27,525 nt of DNA from a virus: positions 1-27,525 of the IMG/VR virus record IMGVR_UViG_3300013102_000064. One strand, 5' to 3'. Every line of letters begins with the position of its first letter. Positions within the stretch are counted from its first letter, which is position 1. The position numbers were made by a program, and so were the translations under genes. The notes beneath the pieces are model-generated. The model saw only the letters and a list, made by a program, of their open reading frames with translations, made no database searches and was not told the DNA's origin. Positions 227 to 19,385 of the stretch are shown piece after piece.

Positions 227-263
227 GGCAGCGGAGATGGTGGTCTCTGCTGCCTTTGTTTTT
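227..263 (+). terminator. Rho-independent terminator-like hairpin, plus-strand orientation
   Basis: GGCAGCGGAGA (227-237) pairs with TCTCTGCTGCC (244-254) through 11 positions including one G-U, with a TGGTGG loop. It is followed by TTTGTTTTT. The U-tract is on the plus strand, so it would stop transcripts arriving from the left. On the minus strand it could act only as a 3' stabilising hairpin just after the methyltransferase stop codon. Confidence 0.6.
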
Positions 264-1113
264 AGTGTGCCTTAATTAGTTTTTCGGCAATCCATTGCGC
301 GATTTGCGTAACGACGGCGTTTCCGGCAGCGAAAGCCTCTGCAAAGTTGGCCGCATCCAGTCCGAGGCAAAGCCCATCATCTTCAGACGTTCGCTGCCGC
401 TCAGCCATCTGATCCCATCCGTTCGGTTGAGCGATGAAAGTGGTACAGCCCATAGTGATTTGGGAGCCTGCTTTGTTTGCCAATAGAGTATTGGCAGCCC
501 ATGCATCCGCGGGGCGTGGCCACGCGATCTTGCTAGACGCTGGAGGTATTGCTTCCACTGGCGCAGCGTCAGCCAGCAGCTCCATGGGGGGCATTCGTCG
601 ATGACCTGCGACCAGGAATACGCGACGACGTTGCTGGGGGACTCCGAAATATTGAGCATTAAGCACTCGCCAGAATCCCACATACCCGCATTGCGCAAGG
701 GCCCGGATGACTGTTTCAAAGTCTTGGCTATCGTTGATAGCGAGCAGGTTAACGACATTCTCAAGCACCACCCAGCGAGGTTGTGTCTCTTTGAGGATTC
801 GTATGACTTCCCAGAACAGGCCGCTGCGTTCGCCGCGTAGTCCACGGGTGGCTTGGTTGCTGGGTCTGGCGCCGGCAAGGCTGATGTCTTGGCAGGGAAA
901 GCCGCCGGTGATGACGTCAACAGGACGGAGGTTGTGTGCGCCGCAGTGGCGGACGTCTTCGAACTGGACGGCGTGTGGAAATCGATCGGCAAGGACAGCC
1001 CGGTTGATGGGGTTGAGTTCCACTTGCCAGGCGGTGCGGTAGCCTGCGCTTTCGAATCCGACATCAAAACCTCCTATGCCTGCGAACAGGCTTCCAATGG
1101 TGGGCTGGGGCAT
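262..1113 (-). CDS. C5-cytosine DNA methyltransferase (Dcm-like, phage)
   Basis: The 283-residue protein transfers methyl groups from S-adenosylmethionine to cytosine C5 in DNA. Diagnostic motifs are present in order: motif I FAGIGG at about residues 9-14, motif IV GGFPCQ at 70-75 with catalytic Cys74, motif VI ENV at 118-120, motif VIII QQRRR at 160-164, and motif X GNAVV near residue 264. The segment between VIII and X is short, so the target-recognition domain is small and the target site cannot be predicted. No restriction endonuclease is adjacent, which suggests an orphan enzyme that protects phage DNA from host restriction, the job done by Mom in phage Mu. The start overlaps the last 40 nt of the com-like gene and is buried in a hairpin (see 1110-1137). 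The family is certain; the protective role is inferred. Confidence 0.93.
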   Translation of the reverse strand: MPQPTIGSLFAGIGGFDVGFESAGYRTAWQVELNPINRAVLADRFPHAVQFEDVRHCGAHNLRPVDVITGGFPCQDISLAGARPSNQATRGLRGERSGLFWEVIRILKETQPRWVVLENVVNLLAINDSQDFETVIRALAQCGYVGFWRVLNAQYFGVPQQRRRVFLVAGHRRMPPMELLADAAPVEAIPPASSKIAWPRPADAWAANTLLANKAGSQITMGCTTFIAQPNGWDQMAERQRTSEDDGLCLGLDAANFAEAFAAGNAVVTQIAQWIAEKLIKAH

Positions 1114-3925: not shown

Positions 3926-4286
3926 AGGGCACCTCGGTCAACTGGGACACTTCGCCGGCTACGCGCCAATGCACCTGCACGATGATCTGCGCCGCGTTGA
4001 TCTGGACTTTTACCTGGGCCACTGAGACGCGGGGTTCCCAGTGGCGAATAGCATCGAACGCCTCGCGCACCAGGTGCGGCGTGGCGCGATTGGTGGGCCA
4101 GTCGAGGTACAGGTGTAGGTCGCTGCCAAACTCTGGGCGATGGGGATCGCTGCCCTTGGGCGTGCTCAGGATGATGCGAATGGATTGGTCGATATCGCGC
4201 AGGCCCTCGACCACCTTGCCGGAGGTACCGAGGGCGGGTTGCCAGTGGGCGGCTGTAATGCTGGTGTGGGGAATGGGCATCGTCAT
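3909..4286 (-). CDS. Baseplate wedge protein W (GPW/gp25 family)
   Basis: The 125-residue protein has the GPW/gp25 core: LRDIDQSIRIILSTPKGSD, then RPEFGSDLHLYLD and a C-terminal β-region. In P2-like and T4-like phages this protein forms part of the inner baseplate and nucleates sheath assembly. A start at 4280 is also possible. It is the first phage gene after cargo island 1, and a copy of the 20-bp dyad motif lies 31 bp upstream, suggesting it begins its own transcript for W-J-I-fibre-com-methyltransferase. Confidence 0.9.
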   Translation of the reverse strand: MTMPIPHTSITAAHWQPALGTSGKVVEGLRDIDQSIRIILSTPKGSDPHRPEFGSDLHLYLDWPTNRATPHLVREAFDAIRHWEPRVSVAQVKVQINAAQIIVQVHWRVAGEVSQLTEVPYARDA

Positions 4287-4414: not shown

Positions 4415-5032
4415 ATGGACATTTGGGAAGTCGACAAACTATTTTTATTCATCGCATTCGTAGTCCCTGGCTTCATCAGCCTAAAGACATATGCGCTTCT
4501 TCAGCCGACGCAGGTCAAAGACACATCACAACAATTGGTCGATGCCGTTGCGTACAGCTCAATCAATTACGCTTTGTTGATGGGCCCGATTTACGCGGTT
4601 GAACACCTCAATCTCAGGTCGAACTACCCAACGCTCTACGTCCTTTTTTATGTGGTCGTGCTGCTAGTTGCACCCATCGCGTGGGCCTGGATATTTTTAT
4701 GGCTGAGGAAAACTCAGTTGCTTCAGCGCTCAATTGCACATCCGACCGGTAAACCATGGGATTTCGTTTTCAGCCAGCGACTCCCTTATTGGGTGATTGC
4801 TACGCTGAGTGATGGGAGACAAGTCGCTGGACTCTTCCACTCGAAATCCTTCGCTTCAAGCAGCCCAGCATCGGAGCAAATATACCTCGAAGAAGCGTGG
4901 GTATTGAGCGAAGGCGGCGGGTTTGAAAGGCCGAGAAACGATTCTGCAGGCATCATCATCCTTGCTAAAGAAATCGCTACACTCGAGCTGTTTCACCTAA
5001 AGGATCCACAGGAGAGTGGAAATGACGAATAG
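4415..5032 (+). CDS. DUF6338-like membrane protein (cargo island 1)
   Basis: The 205-residue protein has an N-terminal hydrophobic helix (about residues 9-30, FLFIAFVVPGFISLKTY), a weaker one near 52-65, and a long one near 80-102. These are followed by a cytoplasmic domain with WVIATLSDGRQVAGLFHSKSF and YLEEAWVLSEGGGF, which resembles the DUF6338 family. No biochemical function is known to me. AAAGGA precedes the ATG. It is transcribed against the surrounding tail genes, and its last codons overlap the first of four small proline-rich genes, so it heads a five-gene plus-strand unit. That layout suggests a phage moron or conflict module. The family call is from recalled sequence pattern. Confidence 0.65.
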   Translation: MDIWEVDKLFLFIAFVVPGFISLKTYALLQPTQVKDTSQQLVDAVAYSSINYALLMGPIYAVEHLNLRSNYPTLYVLFYVVVLLVAPIAWAWIFLWLRKTQLLQRSIAHPTGKPWDFVFSQRLPYWVIATLSDGRQVAGLFHSKSFASSSPASEQIYLEEAWVLSEGGGFERPRNDSAGIIILAKEIATLELFHLKDPQESGNDE

Positions 5033-5159
5033 AAAAAGTGATGGCGCTGGGAAAGTCGGATACCAACCGAGCAAAGGCGACTCTCATCCAACAAAAGATG
5101 GTTATGCCCCGCCACCTACCAGTGAAAGAGCACCTGCTCCGCCACCCAAAAACCCATAG
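5022..5159 (+). CDS. Proline-rich microprotein 1 of 4
   Basis: This 45-residue ORF begins inside the last codons of the DUF6338-like gene, so it is probably translationally coupled; GGAGAGTGGA provides a ribosome site. It has a polar basic N-terminus (MTNRKSDG), a GYQPSKGD block, a second GYAP block and a PAPPPKNP end. Microproteins 2-4 downstream share this plan, and microprotein 3 is the closest relative. No domain or function is recognised. It lacks membrane segments and is probably disordered. Confidence 0.7.
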   Translation: MTNRKSDGAGKVGYQPSKGDSHPTKDGYAPPPTSERAPAPPPKNP

Positions 5160-5172
5160 GATGAAAGTGAGC

Positions 5173-5319
5173 ATGACTGATAAGAAGAACGAAACGAGTA
5201 AACCCGTGCTGGTACGGGGCATAGGTCAGGATGGATATCAGCCGAAAAGCTTCATTCCCCAGCAGCCTAAACCCGAAAACGTAACCAAACCCATTGCACC
5301 TCCGCCTAAGCAGCCATAG
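5173..5319 (+). CDS. Proline-rich microprotein 2 of 4
   Basis: The 48-residue ORF starts MTDKKNETSK, contains GYQPKSF, and ends IAPPPKQP. It begins 13 bases after microprotein 1, with GAAAGTGAG as the ribosome site. It keeps the GYQP block and PPPKxP end but has lost the second GYxP block, so it is the most divergent member. Conservation of start, spacing and end in four consecutive ORFs supports real coding. Confidence 0.65.
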   Translation: MTDKKNETSKPVLVRGIGQDGYQPKSFIPQQPKPENVTKPIAPPPKQP

Positions 5320-11339: not shown

Positions 11340-11493
11340 TCTCGCGCTGACACACCGCTACCCAGCGCCAGTAATCGACCATGTCTAGCCGTTCTATTTC
11401 AGACGGTTGCAGACGCAGCACCAGCAGCAGTGCTTCGTCCCAGGACTGCAGCAATGGCTCTACCGGCTGCCATTTCCCGCAACACCTCGGTGG
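11299..11493 (-). CDS. Frameshift extension of the tail assembly chaperone (E'/41'-like)
   Basis: Reading one base later than the chaperone frame, the minus strand stays open from 11493 to TGA at 11299. It encodes a conserved-looking tail: LQSWDEALLLVLRLQPSEIE, then RLDMVDYWRWVAVCQREINR and a short end. This is typical of the E+E' or gp41' second domain that binds the tape measure. It has no start codon of its own, so it should be made by ribosomal frameshifting (+1 or -2) from the upstream frame. A GCGGGAAATG sequence at 11480-11471, where CGG-GAA can re-pair as GGG-AAA, is the most attractive slip site. Confidence 0.7.
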   Translation of the reverse strand, partial: PPRCCGKWQPVEPLLQSWDEALLLVLRLQPSEIERLDMVDYWRWVAVCQREINRRLELAEQSSS

Positions 11494-11713
11494 CTAACGA
11501 CGAGTCGGCAATGTCGAACTCGCCGAGGTCTTCCAGGGTGATGCCCAGCATCTTGGCCACCAGTTGGTCTTCCATGGCACCTTCGTCTTTGGTCACCGCC
11601 TGCGCGGCACTGATGTCTTTGCGTTTGAGGCGCGTGATGGGCAGGATTTTGAGGGTTTCGCCGCTGGCGCTTTTGAAGGGGAATTTGAGGGTGAAGCTGA
11701 GTGCGTCGGCCAT
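11399..11713 (-). CDS. Tail assembly chaperone (P2 gpE / Mu gp41-like)
   Basis: The 104-residue protein begins MADALSFTLKFPFKSASGET and contains LPITRLKRKDISAAQ, typical of the E/41/14 tail assembly chaperone family (PF10109). Such proteins coat the tape measure during tail tube polymerisation. GGAG lies 9-10 nt before the ATG. It is the first phage gene after cargo island 2, and copy B of the 20-bp motif lies 53 bp upstream. A frameshifted extension (11299-11493) overlaps its end. Confidence 0.88.
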   Translation of the reverse strand: MADALSFTLKFPFKSASGETLKILPITRLKRKDISAAQAVTKDEGAMEDQLVAKMLGITLEDLGEFDIADSSLATEVLREMAAGRAIAAVLGRSTAAGAASATV

Positions 11714-11766
11714 TGTGGGGTGCTCCAGGTTGAGAACCCTGATGATGTCGCGCGGCGCAGGCGCAG

Positions 11767-11786
11767 GCTTTTAATCGGGTTTAAGG
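11767..11786 (-). promoter_or_regulatory. 20-bp dyad motif, copy B (putative late promoter/activator site)
   Basis: GCTTTTAATCGGGTTTAAGG matches copies A and C at 19 of 20 positions. It lies at the boundary between cargo island 2 and the tail chaperone gene, oriented as in the other copies relative to the downstream phage gene. A promoter or activator role is inferred from this positional conservation. Confidence 0.6.
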
Positions 11787-11923
11787 AGAGGGTTTCGCGG
11801 CTCGATCGAGGATCGTTATCGGGCAGCAATCACTGCATAGAAAGGCGTTTTACGTCGGTAGCATTACCGCAAAAAATAATAAGGACGCGCCGTCGCGGTC
11901 GCGACCTTTGAATGCTGCTAAAC

Positions 11924-11947
11924 AGCGAGGGCGCAAGCGCCCTCGCT
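11924..11947 (-). terminator. Hairpin after the DUF6124 gene
   Basis: AGCGAGGGCGC (11924-11934) and GCGCCCTCGCT (11937-11947) are perfect inverted repeats separated by AA. On the minus strand it starts 14 nt after the DUF6124 stop codon. Only a short TTT follows, so it may be a weak terminator or a 3' stabiliser. The 11787-11923 stretch holds nothing else I recognise. Confidence 0.5.
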
Positions 11948-11960
11948 ACCCGCCTGGCGA

Positions 11961-12329
11961 CTACCCAAGCTTGTGGTTGTCCAGTACTCGATTGACCGCT
12001 AACTCACCCAACATGATGACCCGTTGCAGCACCAGCATCGTTTGGCGTCGCGGGTCGTCCGTTAAGTCGACGAGATCGTTGACCATGGCGCTGGCGGATG
12101 CCAACGATTCGCAGGCCTCGACGAGCAACGTTTCGTCATCCACCGCTGCGTCGATGGTGAAGATGGTGCTGGGCCTGTGGGGCGGTATCTGCGTTTTCGT
12201 CGCCCCGGGGTCGAGGTAGAAGCTGAGTGCGCGGTCGGCCGCCTCTTTCATTTTCTTGGGGTCAAGATCAATAAAGGCGTCGTAGGGTAGCGGACCGGTA
12301 TTTGGGGGGTTAGGCGTAACTTTGAACAT
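11961..12329 (-). CDS. DUF6124 (former DUF3077) family protein
   Basis: The protein has 122 residues from the ATG at 12329, chosen because MFKVTPNPP is the family's usual beginning and GGGAG lies eight bases upstream; a start at 12350 would add seven residues. It shows the family signature: PSTIFTIDAAVDDETLLVEA, ACESLASASAMVNDL, and LGELAVNRVLDN near the end. The family is largely restricted to Pseudomonas, is multicopy in many strains, and has no established function that I know. It is divergent from the 34-residue ORF at 12462, with a structured 130-bp intergenic region between them. It is Pseudomonas-specific cargo, not a phage tail gene. Confidence 0.88.
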   Translation of the reverse strand: MFKVTPNPPNTGPLPYDAFIDLDPKKMKEAADRALSFYLDPGATKTQIPPHRPSTIFTIDAAVDDETLLVEACESLASASAMVNDLVDLTDDPRRQTMLVLQRVIMLGELAVNRVLDNHKLG

Positions 12330-12378
12330 AGATGAAGCTCCCATTTTCAATATTGAGATTGAGGAGCCATCACTCTCG

Positions 12379-12440
12379 CTACCAAACGAGGGTGGCGGCC
12401 ATACGTGGGTTGGTAGACCGGTTGAAAACGGGAAACCCGG
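12379..12440. promoter_or_regulatory. Structured region between DUF6124 and the divergent small ORF
   Basis: CTACCAA (12379-12385) pairs with TTGGTAG (12410-12416). CGGG-AAA-CCCG (12429-12439) forms a second small hairpin just before the AAGGAG ribosome site of the 34-residue ORF. I recall this intergenic sequence as conserved next to DUF6124 genes in fluorescent pseudomonads. It could be a leader RNA or a divergent operator; neither is proven by the sequence. Confidence 0.4.
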
Positions 12441-12461
12441 CGCTCACAAGGAGCCCCACGC

Positions 12462-12566
12462 ATGACCACCATATTAAAGCCGAGTCCCAAAAAGAGACTG
12501 CATAAGATGTCGCCATGCGGATGTTTTCAAAACGGGCTACCAAACCCGATCACTGTTTTTCAGTGA
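12462..12566 (+). CDS. Conserved-type small ORF (34 residues)
   Basis: The ORF starts MTTILKPSPKKRLHKMSPCG and ends NPITVFQ. AAGGAG is placed nine bases upstream, an excellent ribosome site. The basic N-terminus and paired cysteines (CGC) are notable. The stop falls in CTGTTTTTCAGTGA. It may be a leader peptide of the downstream structured region or the remnant of a longer protein. No function is recognised. Confidence 0.4.
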   Translation: MTTILKPSPKKRLHKMSPCGCFQNGLPNPITVFQ

Positions 12567-13007
12567 CAGGGAAACGATATAGCCCGCCCCACAGCCGCAC
12601 AAGCCAGCGGATTCTGGCGCACGCGTAGGTAACGACGCAAGGCGTTGTAGCCGATAGGACGTAACAGCGGGTGTCCTTAAACGCGTAGTTAAACGCGTGA
12701 AAGCTTTCCAAAGATCGAGGAAGCGTCCGACTTTTTTCCCGGGGGCGCGACCTTACCCGCGGGCCGCTGTAAATCCTGCCGGACTCGCGTGGCGACGTAG
12801 TGCTTTAGAAGAGGTTTTGGTAGGCGGATGCCGGATTGGTCACCGGCTGATGGGGACGACGCTGATCGCTACGGCGCTTCCTTTGAATAGAACCGTGCGG
12901 GGGCGAAAAAAGATGGTCACTGTACGCCGGTAATGGGACCGAGTAGGAGCTTTGCAATGCCGGTTTGCCCGAGGGCACCCGGCGTACAGTTACCATTAAA
13001 ATCAGAC
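12567..13007. other. Non-coding conserved Pseudomonas module sequence
   Basis: No convincing gene is seen in these 441 bases. The antisense translation contains PHGSIQRKRRSDQRRPHQPV, a string I recall from many Pseudomonas hypothetical proteins. This indicates a multicopy nucleic-acid element that is often mis-annotated as coding. The right part carries a long inverted repeat (12915-12994). The region directly precedes the 108-residue small gene. Confidence 0.45.
12915..12994. repeat. Long inverted repeat enclosing about 48 nt
   Basis: GGTCACTGTACGCCGG (12915-12930) and CCGGCGTACAGTTACC (12979-12994) pair at 15 of 16 positions. The enclosed segment contains GAGTAGGAGCTTTGCAATGC and a CCGAGGG element. 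A plus-strand transcript would form a long stem 14 nt before the start codon at 13008, so it may be a leader RNA or a mobile-repeat terminus. Confidence 0.6.
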
Positions 13008-13334
13008 ATGGAGCTGCCTGTCCCTTACAAAAGATGCGCGTACAACTTAACGTGCTACGGGCTGCTCCGCCCGGTCACTGCGAATGGTGACGGGAGACAA
13101 TTTACCGACGGCGACTTGGTGCGTCTGCCGGCCGATTCGGTTGTATTTGTAGGTAATGGCGTTGGGGGGTGTAGCCTCACGAACTCACACGGAGCAACAC
13201 TGAGCACGCGTCCTAGGATGAGTGAATGTTTGAAAAAAATCGTTGAAGCCTCCGACAACTTTTTAGGGTTGGCCGACGGCCGCGTGGCGGTTAGTGTGGT
13301 GGTTACTCAACCTTCAGCACTAGGAATCGGATGA
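13008..13334 (+). CDS. Small conserved-type Pseudomonas protein of the DUF6124 module
   Basis: The protein has 108 residues from MELPVPYKRCAYNL; upstream in-frame starts lie within the inverted repeat and are less likely. It contains GDLVRLPADSVVFVGNGVGG, CSLTNSHGATLS and a helix SECLKKIVEASDNFLGLADG. I recall similar proteins in Pseudomonas near DUF6124 genes, without known function. Its TGA overlaps the ATG of the next gene (ATGA), so the two are probably translationally coupled. No membrane segments. Confidence 0.6.
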   Translation: MELPVPYKRCAYNLTCYGLLRPVTANGDGRQFTDGDLVRLPADSVVFVGNGVGGCSLTNSHGATLSTRPRMSECLKKIVEASDNFLGLADGRVAVSVVVTQPSALGIG

Positions 13335-14185
13335 TTGACCTGAAGCAGGACGCCGCAACCATTACTCACGTTAACCAGCGCTTTGACGAACTCATTGGGC
13401 GACATAAAGAGAAAGTGCTGTCTCAGATCAAGGACGATCCGCAGCGGGTGATCATCCGGTACTACCTGAAGGTTCTGCGAGAACTGTGCATACAAGGATG
13501 CGGATGTTTGTCGGCCCAGGCGTATTCCACATTAGAGGCGTTGAGCCGGGTCATCATGGAGCAGTCCGCCAATATGCTCTATGTGGGTATGGACAGCGGG
13601 GAGAATGCTCGGGCGTTGCTCAGAAGCAGTAAAGCGCTGATCAAAAGTAATGGCGAGAGCTGGGCAGCTTATCTAGCCACTCAGGGTTTGCATAATCCAG
13701 TTGCACAAGCACGGCAGGAGAATGGTGCAATGATGCTGGCGCATTTTGATAAGCAGTGGCCAAACGTAGCGCGTTACCCTGGGGGCAAAGGCCTATTTGC
13801 CGCGATCGGTTGGGCAAATAACTACTACGCTTTTTACTCCCCATTGTGCGATTCGGTGCACAGCTTTTCTGACGATCTTGCTAATCTGGTCAGCATTAGC
13901 GAAGTGTTTGCAGAGTCAGCGGCGTTCGGTGAGCAGGTGCTGCGTTACTCAGAGAAGGAGCGTTGCCGACTGGCGACCTATCACTATGCTATTGCGATAG
14001 GTTTACGTGCCGAGTCCTTTGGAGGAATCTGTAGCATCGTAGGTTTCAGTCTCGACGAAAAGGAGACCGACGATATCTTCGCGGATTTGCATCGCCTGAT
14101 TGAGCGTCATGAGAAATTTGATGGTGCCCGGCTTAGCGAAATGAATGCGGTCGACATGTCTTTCAAGGACTTTCCGATCAACTAA
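13331..14185 (+). CDS. DUF5677-like helical protein (cargo island 2)
   Basis: The 284-residue all-helical protein starts MIDLKQDAATI with AGGA upstream and a four-base overlap with the previous gene. The middle contains TLEALSRVIMEQSANMLYVG, a Trp-rich segment, then YYAFYSPLCDSVHSF. The order 'R..mE...n..Y' followed by a Y/S/H-rich helix resembles DUF5677 proteins, which are HEPN-like and often lie near defence genes. No RNase motif (RxxxxH) is clear, so catalytic activity is doubtful. It is convergent with the SLATT-like gene, separated by a GC-rich hairpin. The family call is moderate. Confidence 0.6.
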   Translation: MIDLKQDAATITHVNQRFDELIGRHKEKVLSQIKDDPQRVIIRYYLKVLRELCIQGCGCLSAQAYSTLEALSRVIMEQSANMLYVGMDSGENARALLRSSKALIKSNGESWAAYLATQGLHNPVAQARQENGAMMLAHFDKQWPNVARYPGGKGLFAAIGWANNYYAFYSPLCDSVHSFSDDLANLVSISEVFAESAAFGEQVLRYSEKERCRLATYHYAIAIGLRAESFGGICSIVGFSLDEKETDDIFADLHRLIERHEKFDGARLSEMNAVDMSFKDFPIN

Positions 14186-14196
14186 TTGCAGGCGTA

Positions 14197-14215
14197 CGCG
14201 GAGCACGGCTCCGCG
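14197..14215. terminator. GC-rich hairpin between convergent genes
   Basis: CGCGGAGC-ACG-GCTCCGCG is a perfect 8-bp stem between the stop codons of the DUF5677-like gene (plus) and the SLATT-like gene (minus). No U-tract follows on either strand, so it is at best a factor-assisted or weak terminator. Confidence 0.4.
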
Positions 14216-14237
14216 GCCCCCCGAATAAGACGCAACC

Positions 14238-14738
14238 TTAAACTTTCGAGTTCAGGCCAGACTCGCCCCACTGATTTACTTTTTCAGCCTGCATATGCTC
14301 ATGGACAGCCTGAGGGATATGAGGTGACTCAACCGCCAGAGCGTCAATACGAATCCGGAGATCCTCGATCTTTTCGGCGCTAATTTCAGAGTATGTGCGC
14401 AGTAGCTCAATCTCTCTTCCAACGGCATTGTACTTTGCCCCAGCGCCCCGGTGCTTCTCAGCCAGTTCCTGGTAACGAAGCGTTGATTGCAACGCTGTGA
14501 GGATCGCGGCTATCACGCTCATCGCACCGACGCCGAACTGTAACCAGAAGCTAGATTGTTGCTGAAGCGTCGCAAACACTGCCGTGCCTACTACGGCTGA
14601 GAGTGCCACGGTAGGCATTGTTATCCAAAAATGCTGCCTGGAATACCTAAGCGCAGCCCGGTAGTGCCCCACCGCGACGACGGACGTCCGTTCATACCAT
14701 TCATCTAGAACTTGTCGCGTGCTGAGTTGACTCATCAT
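14238..14738 (-). CDS. SLATT-domain two-helix membrane protein (putative effector)
   Basis: The protein has 166 residues from the ATG at 14738; starts at 14753 or 14735 are also possible and no strong ribosome site settles it. It has the SLATT layout: a helix LDEWYERTSVVAVGHYRAAL, two adjacent membrane segments (FWITMPTVALSAVVGTAVF and FWLQFGVGAMSVIAAILTAL), then YQELAEKHRGAGAKYNAVGR and a C-terminal coiled coil. SLATT proteins are predicted pore-forming effectors of nucleotide-signalling and SLOG conflict systems, acting on the inner membrane. Here no CD-NTase or SLOG gene is adjacent. It is the last gene of a minus-strand trio (SMEK, 348-residue protein, SLATT) spaced about 50 nt apart. The SLATT call is by pattern; toxicity is inferred. 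Confidence 0.75.
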   Translation of the reverse strand: MMSQLSTRQVLDEWYERTSVVAVGHYRAALRYSRQHFWITMPTVALSAVVGTAVFATLQQQSSFWLQFGVGAMSVIAAILTALQSTLRYQELAEKHRGAGAKYNAVGREIELLRTYSEISAEKIEDLRIRIDALAVESPHIPQAVHEHMQAEKVNQWGESGLNSKV

Positions 14739-14792
14739 TGGAACCATGGTCATTGAGAGGGAGTAGAACAAAGAGCCATGCAGAGCAATTAT

Positions 14793-15839
14793 TTACTCAT
14801 ATTTCATGCTGCCCAGCAGATCGTACATCAAGTCACCTTCAAGGATTTCAAAAGGTAGTTGAACGTAGTGGTCGGGATGGCGGAGATTGGCTTTACCATC
14901 GTGAGGTGCATTCTTGGTGTGGCCTTGCACTAATTCACCACTTTCCTTGATGTATGGAAGTACGACGATCCGACCATGATTTTTGGAAAGAATCGTCCCT
15001 TCTTTCCAGACAGTATGTCCTTCCTTTCCAGAACTCGATCCCCCTACCTCCTTAACTACCCACCCGACAGAATTGTTTTCTTCATACCAAAATACAAAAC
15101 CACCGCATACGACAACACGTTGCCCGCGCCGCTTGGCATCGTCGAGCATCATTTTGAATCCTGTTTCTTGAAGCAGTTGGTTTGCCCTAGGGAGCAATGC
15201 AGAGCGTATTTCAGCCTTAGTTTTCCCCCAGTGATTCGTACCTGCCAGATTAAACCCCCTGGCTATTTTTTCACGTGCGCAGTAGATGGCCGTCTTCCGG
15301 TCGTGAACCGCTTTTGTAGTCCAATCGTTGTCGTCTTTGCGGATCAAGGTGATACGAAATTGAGAAATTCGCGCATAACGGATATACGGGAACTGCTGGA
15401 GCACCTTAAACAGCGGCTCACGCAACTTCTCTAAGTCTGGCGACAGCAATAGGTCCTCTGCTTTTGGACGTGGATCATTCACATGCCGCTTAAATGCCTC
15501 CTTCAACATCCAGTTTTCTTCATCCATCAAGCGGCCTTCGGCAGTGATCGCTTTTTCGACCTTTAATTTTATCGAAAGCTTCTCCTCAGACGGCAAGTCC
15601 AACGTATCCACATTGCCAATCAATTGAGTATTTGTAGACTTAACCTCCTCTAGCGCGTCTTTTAAATTGTCGTAGGATACTGGCCCAAAGTCAGTTTGAC
15701 CGCGCAGAAACCAATCTAGCGTTCCATCACGTTTTAATTGAAGATCAAATATATACCAGAGGTCATCATATTCAGGCCACTGCTGGGGCCAGCAAGCCAA
15801 GGTTGGGAGCGGTACTCGAGAACGTTTTAATGACTTCAT
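14793..15839 (-). CDS. Unrecognised 348-residue protein between SMEK and SLATT genes
   Basis: AAGGA lies ten bases before the ATG. I recognise no known domain. The N-terminus (about 1-50) is rich in Trp/Tyr (WPQQWPEYDDLWYIFDL), residues 55-125 are charged and coiled-coil-like, and residues 140-200 form a mixed region around YIRYARISQFRITLIRKD. The C-terminal half has a β-rich part (GQRVVVCGGFVFWYEENNS). No membrane segment, nucleotide-binding loop or nucleotidyltransferase motif is visible. It lies 52 nt after SMEK and 54 nt before SLATT on the same strand, so it may be the sensor or adaptor that links them. Bases are more A/T-rich than in the phage genes, suggesting separate acquisition. Confidence 0.85.
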   Translation of the reverse strand: MKSLKRSRVPLPTLACWPQQWPEYDDLWYIFDLQLKRDGTLDWFLRGQTDFGPVSYDNLKDALEEVKSTNTQLIGNVDTLDLPSEEKLSIKLKVEKAITAEGRLMDEENWMLKEAFKRHVNDPRPKAEDLLLSPDLEKLREPLFKVLQQFPYIRYARISQFRITLIRKDDNDWTTKAVHDRKTAIYCAREKIARGFNLAGTNHWGKTKAEIRSALLPRANQLLQETGFKMMLDDAKRRGQRVVVCGGFVFWYEENNSVGWVVKEVGGSSSGKEGHTVWKEGTILSKNHGRIVVLPYIKESGELVQGHTKNAPHDGKANLRHPDHYVQLPFEILEGDLMYDLLGSMKYE

Positions 15840-15891
15840 AGTCGTCCATTCCTTATGCTGTGATGAATGTGTGCTGGCCGTTAATTATGGG

Positions 15892-16833
15892 TTAGCTTAC
15901 ATTTGGTAGGGCTGGAAGATTGTAAGGCTTGGTAATATTATTGAATCCAGCATTGATTGCATTGCGAAGTTTATCGAAGGTCGCTGCAGTCTCTGGCAAA
16001 TTGAAATCGCAGACGTTGTCATTCAATCTGATCTCCCCACTCTGGACGTGGGTCCGAAAAAGCTGCCGTAGAACGCGCAATTGGTTGTAGATGACGTTGA
16101 GTTGATCGGCAAGTGCGTGATTATTATACTTGGATTGAGGCTTCGTCACGAGTTGCCCCTTCCACTGGCCTGCTTTTATTAAACCAATAAGGCCAGTGAT
16201 CGCTTCCCCAAAATCCCGATAGTTGTTTTCCATGTCCCAAGGGTCCTGCAAAGCGGGACAATCCATAAGTTTACGGATATCTTCAAGAGCTTCTGCATCG
16301 GTCTTGTCCAAGACAGATATGGCGGTATGAGCATAGCTAATCTCACTCTCTATGAGTGCAAGTATGGCCTGAAGCTCCATCGTCGTTTTTTTTTCGATGT
16401 CTTGCATCAATGATTTGTTATCAATGACGTCGGTACGGCCATCGAAGACCACCCCGCTAGGAATGGTTACAGTGCTGTACGTGCCTGTTCGTTTGCCAAT
16501 CAATAGGATTTTGAGAGACTTATACGTCGTCCCCAGCCCGTGCTTTACAAATTTATCCAAGGTCTTTTGGATCTTCGACGATCGGCGATCCGAAGTGACC
16601 TGGACGGCCAGACCAATGTTTTGATCTGCCAGATCGATTGCTGCGGCGTTTAGCTGACTATGATTGAGATTGACAAGATTGTACCCGTAGACCTGATTGA
16701 GCAGCCGTTCGAAGAAGTGTTCGGCTGCGATATTGAGGTCGAAAAAGTGCATTGTCCCGAGGACTTCTACGTCTGCGCTTAGGCGGGTGAGGTGGCGCGT
16801 GATGTCCTTGATCAGGTGTTCGCGTTTCAACAT
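15892..16833 (-). CDS. SMEK-domain protein (nuclease-like fold)
   Basis: The protein has 313 residues from the ATG at 16833; the frame is open 23 codons further, but MLKREHLIKDITRHL is the natural SMEK beginning. The SMEK domain (about 5-140) shows AEHFFERLLNQVYGY with Glu39, AIDLADQNIGLAVQVTSDRR with Asp67 and Gln78-x-Thr80, then KIQKTLDKFVKHGL. The D...QxT spacing is like a divergent PD-(D/E)XK core in which Lys is replaced by Thr, so cleavage activity is uncertain. The C-terminal half (about 170-313) is helical. SMEK domains occur in multi-component conflict systems, often with NTPases; none is next to this one. It starts the SMEK/348/SLATT trio. Confidence 0.8.
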   Translation of the reverse strand: MLKREHLIKDITRHLTRLSADVEVLGTMHFFDLNIAAEHFFERLLNQVYGYNLVNLNHSQLNAAAIDLADQNIGLAVQVTSDRRSSKIQKTLDKFVKHGLGTTYKSLKILLIGKRTGTYSTVTIPSGVVFDGRTDVIDNKSLMQDIEKKTTMELQAILALIESEISYAHTAISVLDKTDAEALEDIRKLMDCPALQDPWDMENNYRDFGEAITGLIGLIKAGQWKGQLVTKPQSKYNNHALADQLNVIYNQLRVLRQLFRTHVQSGEIRLNDNVCDFNLPETAATFDKLRNAINAGFNNITKPYNLPALPNVS

Positions 16834-16933
16834 GACATTCCCAAAGTGGTGAGAAGCAGTCAGCAGGCTTGTGATCGATGATAACCGGTAGTTCACGATC
16901 AATGCGGACTAGCGTTTATGAAAAGGTCTGTGG

Positions 16934-16959
16934 AAAAAGGCCCCGCAGCTTAGGGGCCC
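16934..16959 (-). terminator. Intrinsic terminator before the SMEK gene
   Basis: On the minus strand GGCCCC (16958-16953) and GGGGCC (16944-16939) form a stem with loop TAAGCTGC, followed by TTTTT. It ends the transcript of the lamin-tail-like gene (16983-17351), so the SMEK trio needs its own promoter in the 100 bp after it. Confidence 0.85.
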
Positions 16960-16982
16960 TCCACGTCGGCGGCTACGAGACT

Positions 16983-17351
16983 CTACGCAACGCTCGAAAC
17001 CTTGAAGTTGCTGGCGGTTTTGACTTGAATAAGATGCACCTTGTCTCCCTCTTCATTCCAGACAGGGGACTTCAACCCCCAGTAGAAAAAGCTAGCAGGC
17101 TTCTTGTTCGTGGTCACTCCCCTTATATTTTCTCCAGATTTTGTGAATAGAAAGATGTAGTCGTTCTTTTTTACTTCCCAGCGAGGAAAAATAAAAACAT
17201 GGCGATGCTTATTGCTTGGGCTGCCATTGTTATTAAATGTTTAATCAAAAATTATGTGACCCTCTAGATTACAGTCTTCTTTAGCCTGAAGGGTTACATA
17301 CTCCTTTTTCTCATCACCTTGTTCTGAAACTTTAATGACTTTCAAATCCAT
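16983..17351 (-). pseudogene. Lamin-tail-domain-like gene interrupted by an in-frame TAA
   Basis: AAAGGA lies eight bases before the ATG at 17351. The frame reads MDLKVIKVSEQGDEKKEYVT, continues to EGHIIFD, meets TAA at 17243-17241, and then runs on in the same frame through TFNNNGSPSNKHRHVFIFP, KKNDYIFLFTKSGEN, FYWGLKSPVWNEEGDKVHLI to TAG at 16983. The combined 122 codons follow the order of a lamin-tail domain (EYVxL..., H.h.FP, ...iWN..GD...L). A single stop in an otherwise intact, well-started frame suggests recent decay, a sequencing error or readthrough. Its downstream terminator is intact. Function unknown. Confidence 0.6.
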
Positions 17352-17630
17352 TACGAAAATTCCTTTTACATACGACCAACGCAGGCAAAATGCCAGCACC
17401 AGCGCTAGGCTATCTTGGAGAGCGGTGCCAAGGGAAGGTGTTTTTGAATCTTAAATAAGGACATTCAGAACTTTGTACTACCGCAACGCCCAACCAACGG
17501 CATGAGTGAAAATCATTTCGTCAACTCCCCGGCGGTTTCGTTTTGGCCCGCAGCAAGGCCAATGCAACTTGACCTTCAAAACTAAAACGGATCTTATCTG
17601 ACGCTCACCTCGACAGTCAGGACGTTAGGT
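17352..17630. other. Divergent intergenic region
   Basis: This 279-bp stretch lies between the minus-strand lamin-tail-like gene and the plus-strand PD-(D/E)XK-like gene, and should hold both promoters. I see no gene in it and no confident -35/-10 pair. Confidence 0.4.
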
Positions 17631-18821
17631 ATGTGGGAATACGATTGGCTTGCATGGAACGCTCGCGCGAGCAGCCCCAAGAATAAATGGGCGCTTGAGC
17701 GTTGGTTTTTGATGTATTTGCATCAGCAACAAAATGTCGACCGGCTTGCCTTGGCAGTCATGCACCGGCTCATGGCCGACGACAAAAATATCCAAGTACG
17801 TGTTCAATCGATCTGGGTAGACGGCACTCCTCAGGCAGCGTTCAGCCCCAAAGGTCATCTGCCCCACGAAGAACGGCCGCAATGCGAATTGGCAGATTTA
17901 CTACTGTGTGTTCGATTGGAGTCACCCAACGGTCAGCTTCAACGCGAGCAAGCAATGTTGATCCAGGCCAAAGTTGCCTCTGACCATGATGAGCTGCCAG
18001 GGGGCGAATCGACACATACAGAACGCCAGCTGCTTGAAGACTGCGACCGCAACCAAGACATCACAGTGTACCCAGGCGTCAAGCGAAAGAAGCCGATTGG
18101 CGATTATCAACTTGGTAATGGCGCTAACAAACAGGCTTACGGCCTTCACGATTGTGCGCGCTACTTGTTGATGGCCAACCAACGATGGGGAAAAGTGGAC
18201 AAAGCCTTCGCCCCCTTGCAAGTCGGCTGGCCATTGTGCAGCGGAAAAAAACAGATCACTCCTCCCGAGCCTTTCTTGGACGCTGTCATGAGCATGGTGG
18301 CAGGTACAAAACCAGAATTGGGACGAGAGATAAAAACCGGAGTGGACGCACTGAACTGCGTCTGGACGAAAATGGTGAACGATCTGCGGGGTAAATATTT
18401 GCCGGTCACTATGAAGGGATACAACAAGCAACGACGTGTGAGGACCTCTGCTGATACGGTGAAATCGCCATATTTAGTTTACTCAGTCCTCAGCGAGAGC
18501 CGAAACTTTAGCGTTATGTCCGACCAGTGGCATACATGGCTTTCACTAAATTGGCCGTACTTGCGGCACCGGTCGGGTTTGGCCAGAATTATGTATTACT
18601 TTAAGCAAGTGTTGCCTAAAAAGAGCCGTTGGGATCATGATAAAAGATTGGAATACTTGCGCAAATCAGGTGTAGATGGCTACGAGGGCATTAAAATCTG
18701 GAGTGACAATTCAAATGTTCCACCCGCGGCCGACTCAAACATGACCGATGGCAATGGCCCACATATTTCCACGCTTGTAATCACTATTCGCGGCCTAGAG
18801 CCGGAACGTCGTCCAGACTAA
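17631..18821 (+). CDS. PD-(D/E)XK-like nuclease-family protein, unrecognised family
   Basis: The 396-residue protein is preceded by AGGACGTTAGGT. The N-terminal helices (about 17-50) carry WALERWFLMYLHQQQNVDRL. Then CELADLLLCVRLES with Glu86 and Asp89 is followed by AMLIQAKVA with Gln112-x-Lys114. This D-x(22)-QxK arrangement on two β-strands is the signature of a PD-(D/E)XK nuclease fold with the Gln variant. The C-terminal 250 residues contain Trp/Tyr-rich helices and no known domain. It stands alone on the plus strand, ended by a terminator facing the tail tube gene. A restriction-like or defence role is inferred from motif and context. It could instead be a nuclease-fold protein without activity. 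Confidence 0.65.
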   Translation: MWEYDWLAWNARASSPKNKWALERWFLMYLHQQQNVDRLALAVMHRLMADDKNIQVRVQSIWVDGTPQAAFSPKGHLPHEERPQCELADLLLCVRLESPNGQLQREQAMLIQAKVASDHDELPGGESTHTERQLLEDCDRNQDITVYPGVKRKKPIGDYQLGNGANKQAYGLHDCARYLLMANQRWGKVDKAFAPLQVGWPLCSGKKQITPPEPFLDAVMSMVAGTKPELGREIKTGVDALNCVWTKMVNDLRGKYLPVTMKGYNKQRRVRTSADTVKSPYLVYSVLSESRNFSVMSDQWHTWLSLNWPYLRHRSGLARIMYYFKQVLPKKSRWDHDKRLEYLRKSGVDGYEGIKIWSDNSNVPPAADSNMTDGNGPHISTLVITIRGLEPERRPD

Positions 18822-18823
18822 AG

Positions 18824-18849
18824 AAGGCCGCTCTCACAAGCGGCCTTTT
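18824..18849. terminator. Bidirectional terminator between cargo island 2 and the tail tube gene
   Basis: AAGGCCGCT-CTCACA-AGCGGCCTT is a 9-bp stem flanked by A-rich and TTTTC sequence, so it can serve both convergent transcripts: the PD-(D/E)XK-like gene and the sheath/tube genes. It would stop the phage late transcript at the island, which explains why a new promoter is needed before the tail chaperone. Confidence 0.85.
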
Positions 18850-18860
18850 CATTTCCATAA

Positions 18861-19385
18861 TCAAGCGATTCCAAGATTCCTGTTGTACCTAGCCAACTGA
18901 TCCTCACCCCCCACTCGAAAAATATTCGCCAAATAATCCAACAACACCACCTCATCCCCATTGATCATCTGCCGCACATAGGTGGCCGAAAACGGAGTCT
19001 CATACTTCGTCGGGTCTCGTGGTTTGTGAGTGCCTAGCTGGTACTCCTTCCCGGTAATGGTCATGGTCGTCACCAGCGGAATCTCGTTCACCAGCCCCCC
19101 GTTATTGAACACCTGAACGTTGGACCGACACTGCAGCTGCACGCTCTTGAACGGCGTCACCAGCTTCTTGGCCGCCTCGAAATACAGGCTGTTCCAAGTG
19201 ATTTTCCCCTCCAACTTATCGATCCCATCCGGCAGCTCGATCAGCCCGACCATGCCCAACCCTTGAAAGTCGCTCATCACGGTTTTGATGGTGCCCAGAT
19301 CAATCTCTTCACACTTACCAAAGTAGCTGGTGCCATCCAGATAAACGTTGGCGTTGGAGATGCGGTGTGCGCTAAAGCCAGCCAT
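18861..19385 (-). CDS. Major tail tube protein (P2 FII-like)
   Basis: The 174-residue protein begins MAGFSAHRISNANVYLDGTS and contains LPDGIDKLEGKITWNSLY and the ITGKEYQLGTHKPRDP segment, matching the phage major tail tube family. It polymerises into the inner tube of the contractile tail. It starts one base after the sheath stop codon and is the last gene before cargo island 2. In P2 the next gene would be E, here displaced by about 7 kb. Confidence 0.94.
   Translation of the reverse strand: MAGFSAHRISNANVYLDGTSYFGKCEEIDLGTIKTVMSDFQGLGMVGLIELPDGIDKLEGKITWNSLYFEAAKKLVTPFKSVQLQCRSNVQVFNNGGLVNEIPLVTTMTITGKEYQLGTHKPRDPTKYETPFSATYVRQMINGDEVVLLDYLANIFRVGGEDQLARYNRNLGIA

Follow-up and report, generated by a model that had tools for sequence, protein, structure and literature searches.

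The DNA analyzed here is a stretch of 27,525 bases, IMG/VR virus record IMGVR_UViG_3300013102_000064 (hereafter, the window). The analysis is centered on three of its genes, encoding a SMEK-domain protein, a 348-residue protein named P348 and a SLATT-like membrane protein. The window carries P2-like late genes, mostly on the minus strand. Profile matches identified the tape measure gene (PHROGs), the tail tube gene (TIGR01611) and the gpE-type chaperone gene (PF10109); the names that we gave to the remaining late genes are presumed. The nearest relative bearing the same three genes is found in a Pseudomonas genome, and the window is part of a P2-like phage, probably with a Pseudomonas host.

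A preliminary description of the window had reported the three minus-strand genes as a candidate conflict system, and the corresponding open reading frames (ORFs) are present at about the positions it gave (Table 1). The spacing of 52 nucleotides (nt) that it assigned to SMEK and P348 holds. The second gap, given as 54 nt, is uncertain and amounts to 21, 45 or 54 nt depending on the start chosen for SLATT, the alternative ATG agreeing with the start of a relative of 169 amino acids (aa) in locus L006, which belongs to a related contig described below. The trio was also described as richer in A/T than the tail genes. G+C content is 0.53 for SLATT, 0.47 for P348 and 0.48 for SMEK, compared to 0.56 for the window; most of the listed genes for tail and head lie at 0.57-0.64, and the tail tube gene at 0.53.

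The trio lies between the gpE-type gene and the tail tube gene. Relatives of the tail tube gene were collected at 76 loci, and the interval separating it from the gpE-type gene was measurable in 69 of them, the other seven being left out because no gpE match was present on the piece examined. This interval measured 4.9-8.9 kb (median 6.6) in 18 relatives, all with a tube identity of at least 90%, and 0.17-1.7 kb in the other 51. The contents of the slot vary between phages, some genes being common to two to five phages, and the trio is present in only one of the 18 large slots. One protein per cluster of at least 150 aa was retained from these slots, some clusters being dropped as repeats or doubtful ORFs, and 36 of the resulting 39 proteins were scanned, including the trio of locus L183. 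With an E of 1e-6 as the upper limit, they matched 31 PADLOC models. Among the 25 listed are Dsr1, AbiJ, a methyl-directed restriction enzyme, PD-T4-10_B, LmuA, endonuclease effectors, predicted-defence models and the SMEK and SLATT models, and Pfam matches include SIR2_2, Abi_C, PLDc_2, HNH_2 and CHAT. To judge from these matches, the interval appears to be a slot where defence-type genes are swapped, in agreement with the earlier proposal of defence cargo in a phage late region.

Table 1. Coordinates of the genes and other features of the window.
Feature	Position	Strand	Remarks
SMEK gene	15892..16833	-	313 aa from ATG; 336 aa from upstream TTG
P348 gene	14793..15839	-	348 aa; phrog_22329
SLATT gene	14238..14771	-	177 aa from TTG 14771; alternative ATG at 14747
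Variable cargo slot	11714..18860		7.1 kb between gpE-type gene and tail tube gene
gpE-type gene	11399-11713		Slot edge; PF10109 Phage_TAC_7, E 2.0e-12
Tail tube gene	18861-19385		Slot edge; TIGR01611, E 6.1e-48; PHROGs phrog_55 'head closure'
Terminator-like palindromic hairpin	18824..18847	-	Between tail tube gene and cargo; 10 pairs, 6 G-C, then T-rich tail
P396	17631..18821	+	396 aa, no family match; relatives 51-52%
P284	13331..14185	+	phrog_4167, E 1.1e-54; DUF5677, E 0.0034, below its cut-off
P133	12933-13334	+	Similar stretches in other tube loci
C4 antisense RNA and a1b1 target element	12388-12476, 12529-12580	-	C4 at 66.8 bits; in slot by 129-aa ORF
Membrane-type gene and small ORF	4415-5032, 5038-5319	+	G+C 0.49; among minus-strand baseplate genes
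DNA cytosine methyltransferase-like ORF	262-1113	-	At window edge, by eye

SMEK and SLATT proteins and the linkage of the trio

The SMEK protein passed the cut-offs of both curated families, as expected from the preliminary description: SMEK_N (PF21941) with 137.4 bits (cut-off 27, E 3.7e-40) and NF033859 with 98.8 bits (cut-off 30). Its residues 4-164 match PDB entry 26bh, 'Mrr domain from Kordia jejudonensis Mrr-APAZ pAgo' (E 1e-18). The protein thus begins with a Mrr-like nuclease domain of SMEK_N type, spanning about residues 4-164, and about 150 aa follow on the C-terminal side. Residues 26-203 of the 336-aa form also match the PADLOC model Aga_REase-PNTD1-PNTD2 (E 9e-39), over positions 2-183 only of its 463-position profile. 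No hydrophobic segment was detected in a Kyte-Doolittle scan. The core D67...Q78-x-T80, previously regarded as divergent, is in fact the family norm: E38, D67, Q78 and K87 are common to all 12 aligned SMEK proteins, and T80 is found in 11 of them. By analogy with its family, SMEK would most likely cut DNA via the Mrr-like domain.

SMEK is listed among the nuclease domains fused to APAZ in PMC10810196. The window protein shares the N-terminal nuclease domain of SMEK/Mrr nuclease-APAZ short pAgo systems. However, these systems carry pAgo and APAZ, whereas the window protein ends about 150 residues past its nuclease domain, and no pAgo match was found among the window cargo proteins scanned (seven with Pfam, six with PADLOC); it is not a member of a short pAgo-nuclease system. 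Elsewhere, a SMEK relative (L118, genome G313) adjoins a short pAgo gene, this partner matching pAgo chains with a best E of 3.5e-87, and at three loci (L111, L113, L114) a relative was seen by eye beside an ATPase-like gene. Full-length SMEK without P348 or SLATT was found in the same slot of another phage (L017, 79% identity) and in a chromosome (L109, 62%), with neighbors differing from those in the window. In L017 the downstream part of the slot is present and devoid of P348 and SLATT; the upstream side is the contig end.

The earlier assignment of SLATT as a two-helix membrane protein was borne out by its scores for SLATT_4 (PF18186, 36.7 bits, cut-off 27) and NF033632 (124 bits, cut-off 55), and by two hydrophobic segments in the Kyte-Doolittle scan. 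It also matches the PADLOC 2TM effector model PDLC00712 (E 1.4e-17). SLATT is therefore predicted to be a SLATT_4 two-helix membrane protein and pore-type effector, which would most likely permeabilize the inner membrane when triggered. CBASS and other systems use SLATT 2TM effectors (PMC7159879), and the window protein resembles them in its SLATT_4 family and in its match to the 2TM effector model. However, CBASS pairs the effector with a CD-NTase gene, and no such gene was detected beside SLATT, which leaves it outside CBASS. The cyclase family SMODS (PF18144) has no match in the 27.5-kb record, possibly a fragment, which agrees with the earlier remark that no CD-NTase adjoins the trio. No PADLOC cyclase model matched the six cargo proteins, other cyclase families not having been searched in the rest of the record. 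Seven Pseudomonas SLATT regions were fetched and six were viewed around the match: neighbors are shared within two pairs, L168 with L169 and L171 with L172, and we recognized no partner recurring in all six, these ORFs not being searched for a cyclase.

The linkage of the three genes was assayed in two collections. Among 73 other contigs containing P348, SMEK and SLATT were found beside it by tblastn in a single one, IMGVR_UViG_2565956580_000002 (loci L006, L016, L087 and L183 are all on this contig), with 86% identity for SMEK, 81% for SLATT and 85% for P348, in the same order and in the same slot. Custom SMEK and SLATT hidden Markov models, run on the ORFs of 88 P348 loci, some of them overlapping, revealed no further contig. 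Among 398 Pseudomonas genomes, weak and partial matches included, SMEK was detected in 17, SLATT in 19 and P348 in 25. Only one genome, G270, has all three, and they are linked; the identity values are equal to those of the contig above, and this is probably the same provirus. Pairs share a genome in G321 and G340 (SMEK and SLATT), G313 (SMEK and P348), and G139 and G186 (SLATT and P348). The only close pair is that of G340 (L168), where a SMEK relative (35%) and a SLATT relative (51%) lie about 5 kb apart, without P348. The preliminary description had named recurrent co-occurrence in unrelated genomes as support for a system, and absence of linkage in any other genome as its refutation; with a close relative carrying the same slot as the only other contig, the outcome comes near to the latter. 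On this distribution the trio was rejected as a conserved system.

The three genes are nevertheless more than chance ORFs. P348 has dozens of homologues, and the ratio of non-synonymous to synonymous substitution (dN/dS) between the window and L006 is 0.14 for SMEK, 0.11 for P348 and 0.08 for SLATT (synonymous sites being near saturation in the latter). The three genes are thus kept under purifying selection. The same ratio is 0.15 for the sheath gene and 0.12 for the tape measure gene, and the trio is about as diverged as these two genes, in keeping with a slot inherited by common descent.

The P348 family and its neighbors

As stated in the preliminary description, P348 has no recognized domain. 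It has no Pfam or NCBIfam match at E <=10, and no match at E <=1 to the 5027 models of PADLOC 2.0.0, which does not cover families described after 2023. Its one family is phrog_22329, annotated as function unknown (E 1.7e-107, residues 10-348 aligned to positions 10-352 of 352). The possibility that P348 belongs to a known unrelated metabolic family had been raised earlier; with no Pfam or NCBIfam match this candidate was rejected, as was a hidden CD-NTase, since there was neither a family match nor a SMODS match in the record. No paper naming phrog_22329 or the pHCM2 homologue WP_001238819 was present among the full-text matches listed.

No membrane segment was detected in P348 by the Kyte-Doolittle scan. 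Conservation is strongest in the C-terminal part, about residues 203-348, and several basic and polar positions of the C-terminal half do not vary in an alignment of 37 sequences, namely K208, R212, N287, R290, K298, T308-K309-N310 and R320. From these residues, we would guess that P348 binds or modifies a nucleic acid or a nucleotide. The model built from the 37 sequences (mean pLDDT 78, pTM 0.63) starts with a beta-sheet, continues with long helices and finishes with a beta-rich end of low confidence; the C-terminal part modeled alone from 50 sequences reached a pLDDT of 67. The preliminary description had looked to structure comparison for a fold. Foldseek gave no confident match for P348, neither model retrieving a PDB fold at the E 0.001 level. 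VIA-align reached a Z of at most 4.2, for residues 12-77, and the best match in a profile search of PDB sequences was only E 0.2. Splicing-endonuclease chains came up for the C-terminal model at E 1.7-2.5 and were not counted as evidence.

P348 homologues were found on 44 genome contigs and 29 viral contigs, of which 52 have at least 2.5 kb on both sides. Across the 37 aligned sequences, identity to the window protein ranges from 37 to 85%. By record titles, the hosts belong to genera that we take to be Gamma-, Beta- and Alphaproteobacteria; one contig is labeled as a Chlorobiaceae metagenome-assembled genome. Grouping by shared neighbor clusters divided the 29 viral contigs into 14 pHCM2-like phage-plasmids, which we assume to be of SSU5 type, six P4-like satellites with Psu, three P2-like phages, one Vibrio P2-like phage, the trio contig and four others. 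P348 lies between psu and the integrase gene in the six P4-like contigs (both genes PHROGs-confirmed in L010), and between the portal gene and a replication-nicking gene in the three P2-like contigs (PHROGs-confirmed in L007); we take these two positions to be the same as the hotspot positions of Rousset et al. In the Vibrio P2-like phage it lies beside the integrase gene; the submitters marked the two genes past the integrase as PD-T4-4 and attached no defence note to P348. Its location is constant in the SSU5-type phage-plasmids, close to genes for a DnaB-like helicase and for ParA (ParA PHROGs-confirmed in L066). Plasmids were also represented, with 149 records matching P348, 143 of them typed non-mobilizable, and in a Rhizobium plasmid P348 comes after genes whose annotations read nucleotidyltransferase and CBASS phospholipase.

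In chromosomes, P348 adjoins Gabija (L019 and L053, and L035 by clustering), CBASS (L028) and SIR2-HerA (L031) genes, as well as AAA ATPases of OLD/AriA type (L044, L059) and others. As the ten neighbors first checked had been picked for their defence-like look, cases were also compared with controls. Loci L019-L061 contain 233 ORFs lying no more than 4 kb from P348; these reduced to 185 non-redundant ORFs, from which the 97 longest (up to 1500 aa) fitting 48,000 residues were retained, representing 35 contigs. The control set comprised 97 proteins of like size (45,896 residues) from 140 non-redundant ORFs at 20 arbitrary sites in 10 Pseudomonas genomes, chosen from those matching SMEK, SLATT or P348. 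At E 1e-30 or better, the neighbors matched 78 PADLOC models and the controls three (two Dsr1 models and mad3), these counts being families matched, not numbers of matching proteins. The 25 listed among the 78 include GajA, GajB, HamA, HamB, two cyclase models, a CBASS phospholipase, SIR2, HerA, PD-Lambda-5_A, PD-T7-5 and dCTPase. One protein may match several names, and the count of 78 is inflated by model redundancy and by multi-gene systems; a fairer comparison is 13 component names among the matches listed for the neighbors versus two for the controls. When a single large neighbor was taken from each of 20 loci, five had a PADLOC match at 1e-20 (L020, L039, L052, L055, L056). The P348 family is uncharacterized, linked to defence and without a constant partner.

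Roles considered for P348 and the trio

The reading that we favor, and consider probable, is that SMEK, P348 and SLATT are independent defence cargo, P348 being predicted to belong to a single-gene antiphage family. It is based on observed distribution, slot turnover, purifying selection and defence neighborhood. The three would be independently mobile cargo genes that stand on one strand, perhaps in one transcript, in this lineage. The presence of P348 without SMEK and SLATT in phages, in satellites and beside chromosomal defence genes argues that it works without them, and it would most likely act as a single-gene antiphage factor, through superinfection exclusion or abortive infection. A more specific extension, which we hold only tentatively, is that P348 (phrog_22329) founds a new family of stand-alone antiphage effectors, with a fold unsolved so far, which P2-like phages, P4-like satellites, phage-plasmids and defence islands of chromosomes would spread among proteobacteria.

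Several observations weigh against independent defence cargo. Association is not function, and a counter-defence gene or a hitch-hiker would likewise cluster with the defence genes of mobile elements. The control proteins all came from Pseudomonas, the case proteins from more genera, and PADLOC gave nothing at 1e-20 for 15 of the 20 large P348 neighbors. There is some overlap among the 73 contigs, which are not fully independent: some are present in two collections (L046 and L089 look alike). The P348 matches also include short fragments. Several P348 copies are broken or truncated (e.g. L015, L052, L060, L061 and L086). P348 is not everywhere the sole cargo, since in the P4-like contigs a second gene separates it from the integrase gene; the intact form of this gene encodes 654 aa and has a weak Avs2-like match (E 6.3e-6). 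The fixed place near helicase and ParA genes in SSU5-type phage-plasmids could mean a phage function. Finally, the trio is kept under purifying selection in two related phages, and cooperation in this lineage is possible.

The alternative that survives best, although we regard it as unlikely, is that P348 is a counter-defence gene, used by mobile elements to neutralize host or rival immunity. Its presence in phages, satellites and phage-plasmids, its fixed position near SSU5-type replication genes and the variety of the defence systems around it, as expected of a broad inhibitor, would all fit. However, P348 also adjoins Gabija, CBASS and SIR2-HerA genes in chromosomes, and its P2- and P4-like positions are of a type where diverse tested defence systems reside (PMC9122126).

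Somewhat more doubtful is a three-gene conflict system specific to this lineage, in which P348 would sense, SMEK would cut DNA and SLATT would open the membrane. The single strand, the short gaps, and the conserved order and low dN/dS in L006 are consistent with such a system. However, linkage is restricted to one of 73 P348 contigs and one of 398 Pseudomonas genomes, SMEK occurs without the other two in the same slot of L017, and the order kept in two relatives may reflect plain descent, the sheath and tape measure genes having diverged about equally. A three-part system with P348 as its sensor or adaptor, as suggested in the preliminary description, is not supported. Least probable, indeed very improbable, is a role for P348 outside any conflict, in the maintenance of phages or plasmids (through replication, immunity or morphogenesis), for which the stable place near the helicase and ParA genes of SSU5-type phage-plasmids and the lack of a recognizable effector domain could be invoked, but P348 is placed differently in chromosomes, P2-like elements, P4-like elements and the window phage, and its chromosomal neighbors match far more defence models than do control proteins.

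The slot can be compared with known hotspots. Those described in PMC9122126 (2022) include hotspots in E. coli next to cos, in Vibrionales prophages between cI and integrase, and in Bacillales prophages. The window slot resembles them in being a short interval between conserved phage genes with high turnover and defence-type contents. However, it lies between tail tube and gpE-type genes, unlike these positions; P348 itself occurs at portal-replication and psu-integrase positions, which compare with those hotspots. P348 can be filed as a candidate among hotspot-borne defence genes, a kind already known. No paper joining P2-like, Pseudomonas, tail tube, defense systems and hotspot was present among the full-text matches listed. 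In PMC8969562, an SSU5-like plasmid is reported to cut the plating of three lytic phages by one to two orders of magnitude; this is a hint only, as the effect was not assigned to a gene and the plasmid may or may not carry P348.

P348 represents a defence-linked gene family without described function, found in four kinds of setting and suited to a one-gene assay. A single gene that travels between phages, satellites and islands lends itself to assay more readily than a system of several parts, and new means of sensing or stopping phages may come to light from a protein whose fold is not recognizable. The large tail-gene cargo slot of this P2-like phage clade is also a source that could be mined for more antiphage genes.

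Other contents of the slot and minor observations

Searches for control elements and boundaries in the slot gave little. Hairpin-type sites number 10 in the region against a shuffle mean of 8.1, so that the scan alone gives no support for a function of the terminator-like hairpin (Table 1). A sigma-70 promoter scan of the sequence did no better than shuffles, and a repeat search of the slot found nothing that could be tied to its edges.

Among the plus-strand neighbors of the trio, P396 has relatives adjoining the tube gene in three other loci (L185, L187 and L189). By eye, a D...Q-x-K stretch in P396 recalls PD-(D/E)XK nucleases. Stretches similar to P133 occur in 11 of the 76 loci with a tube gene and always face the other way from that gene; instead of a real protein, P133 may be the translation of a conserved non-coding module.

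The slots of L006 and L110 also contain a C4 RNA, and both C4 and the target element were detected in L017 and the satellite L010; the RNA and its target may control the phage or its cargo. L006 carries, at positions 4032-4174 after its first cargo gene, a second partial copy of the tail tube 3' end (86-88% identity, two pieces), as if cargo had entered by duplicating the slot edge.

Outside the slot, the methyltransferase-like ORF adjoins a tail fibre gene. The plus-strand membrane-type gene, which has no PHROGs match, and the small ORF that together interrupt the minus-strand baseplate genes are perhaps another cargo spot.

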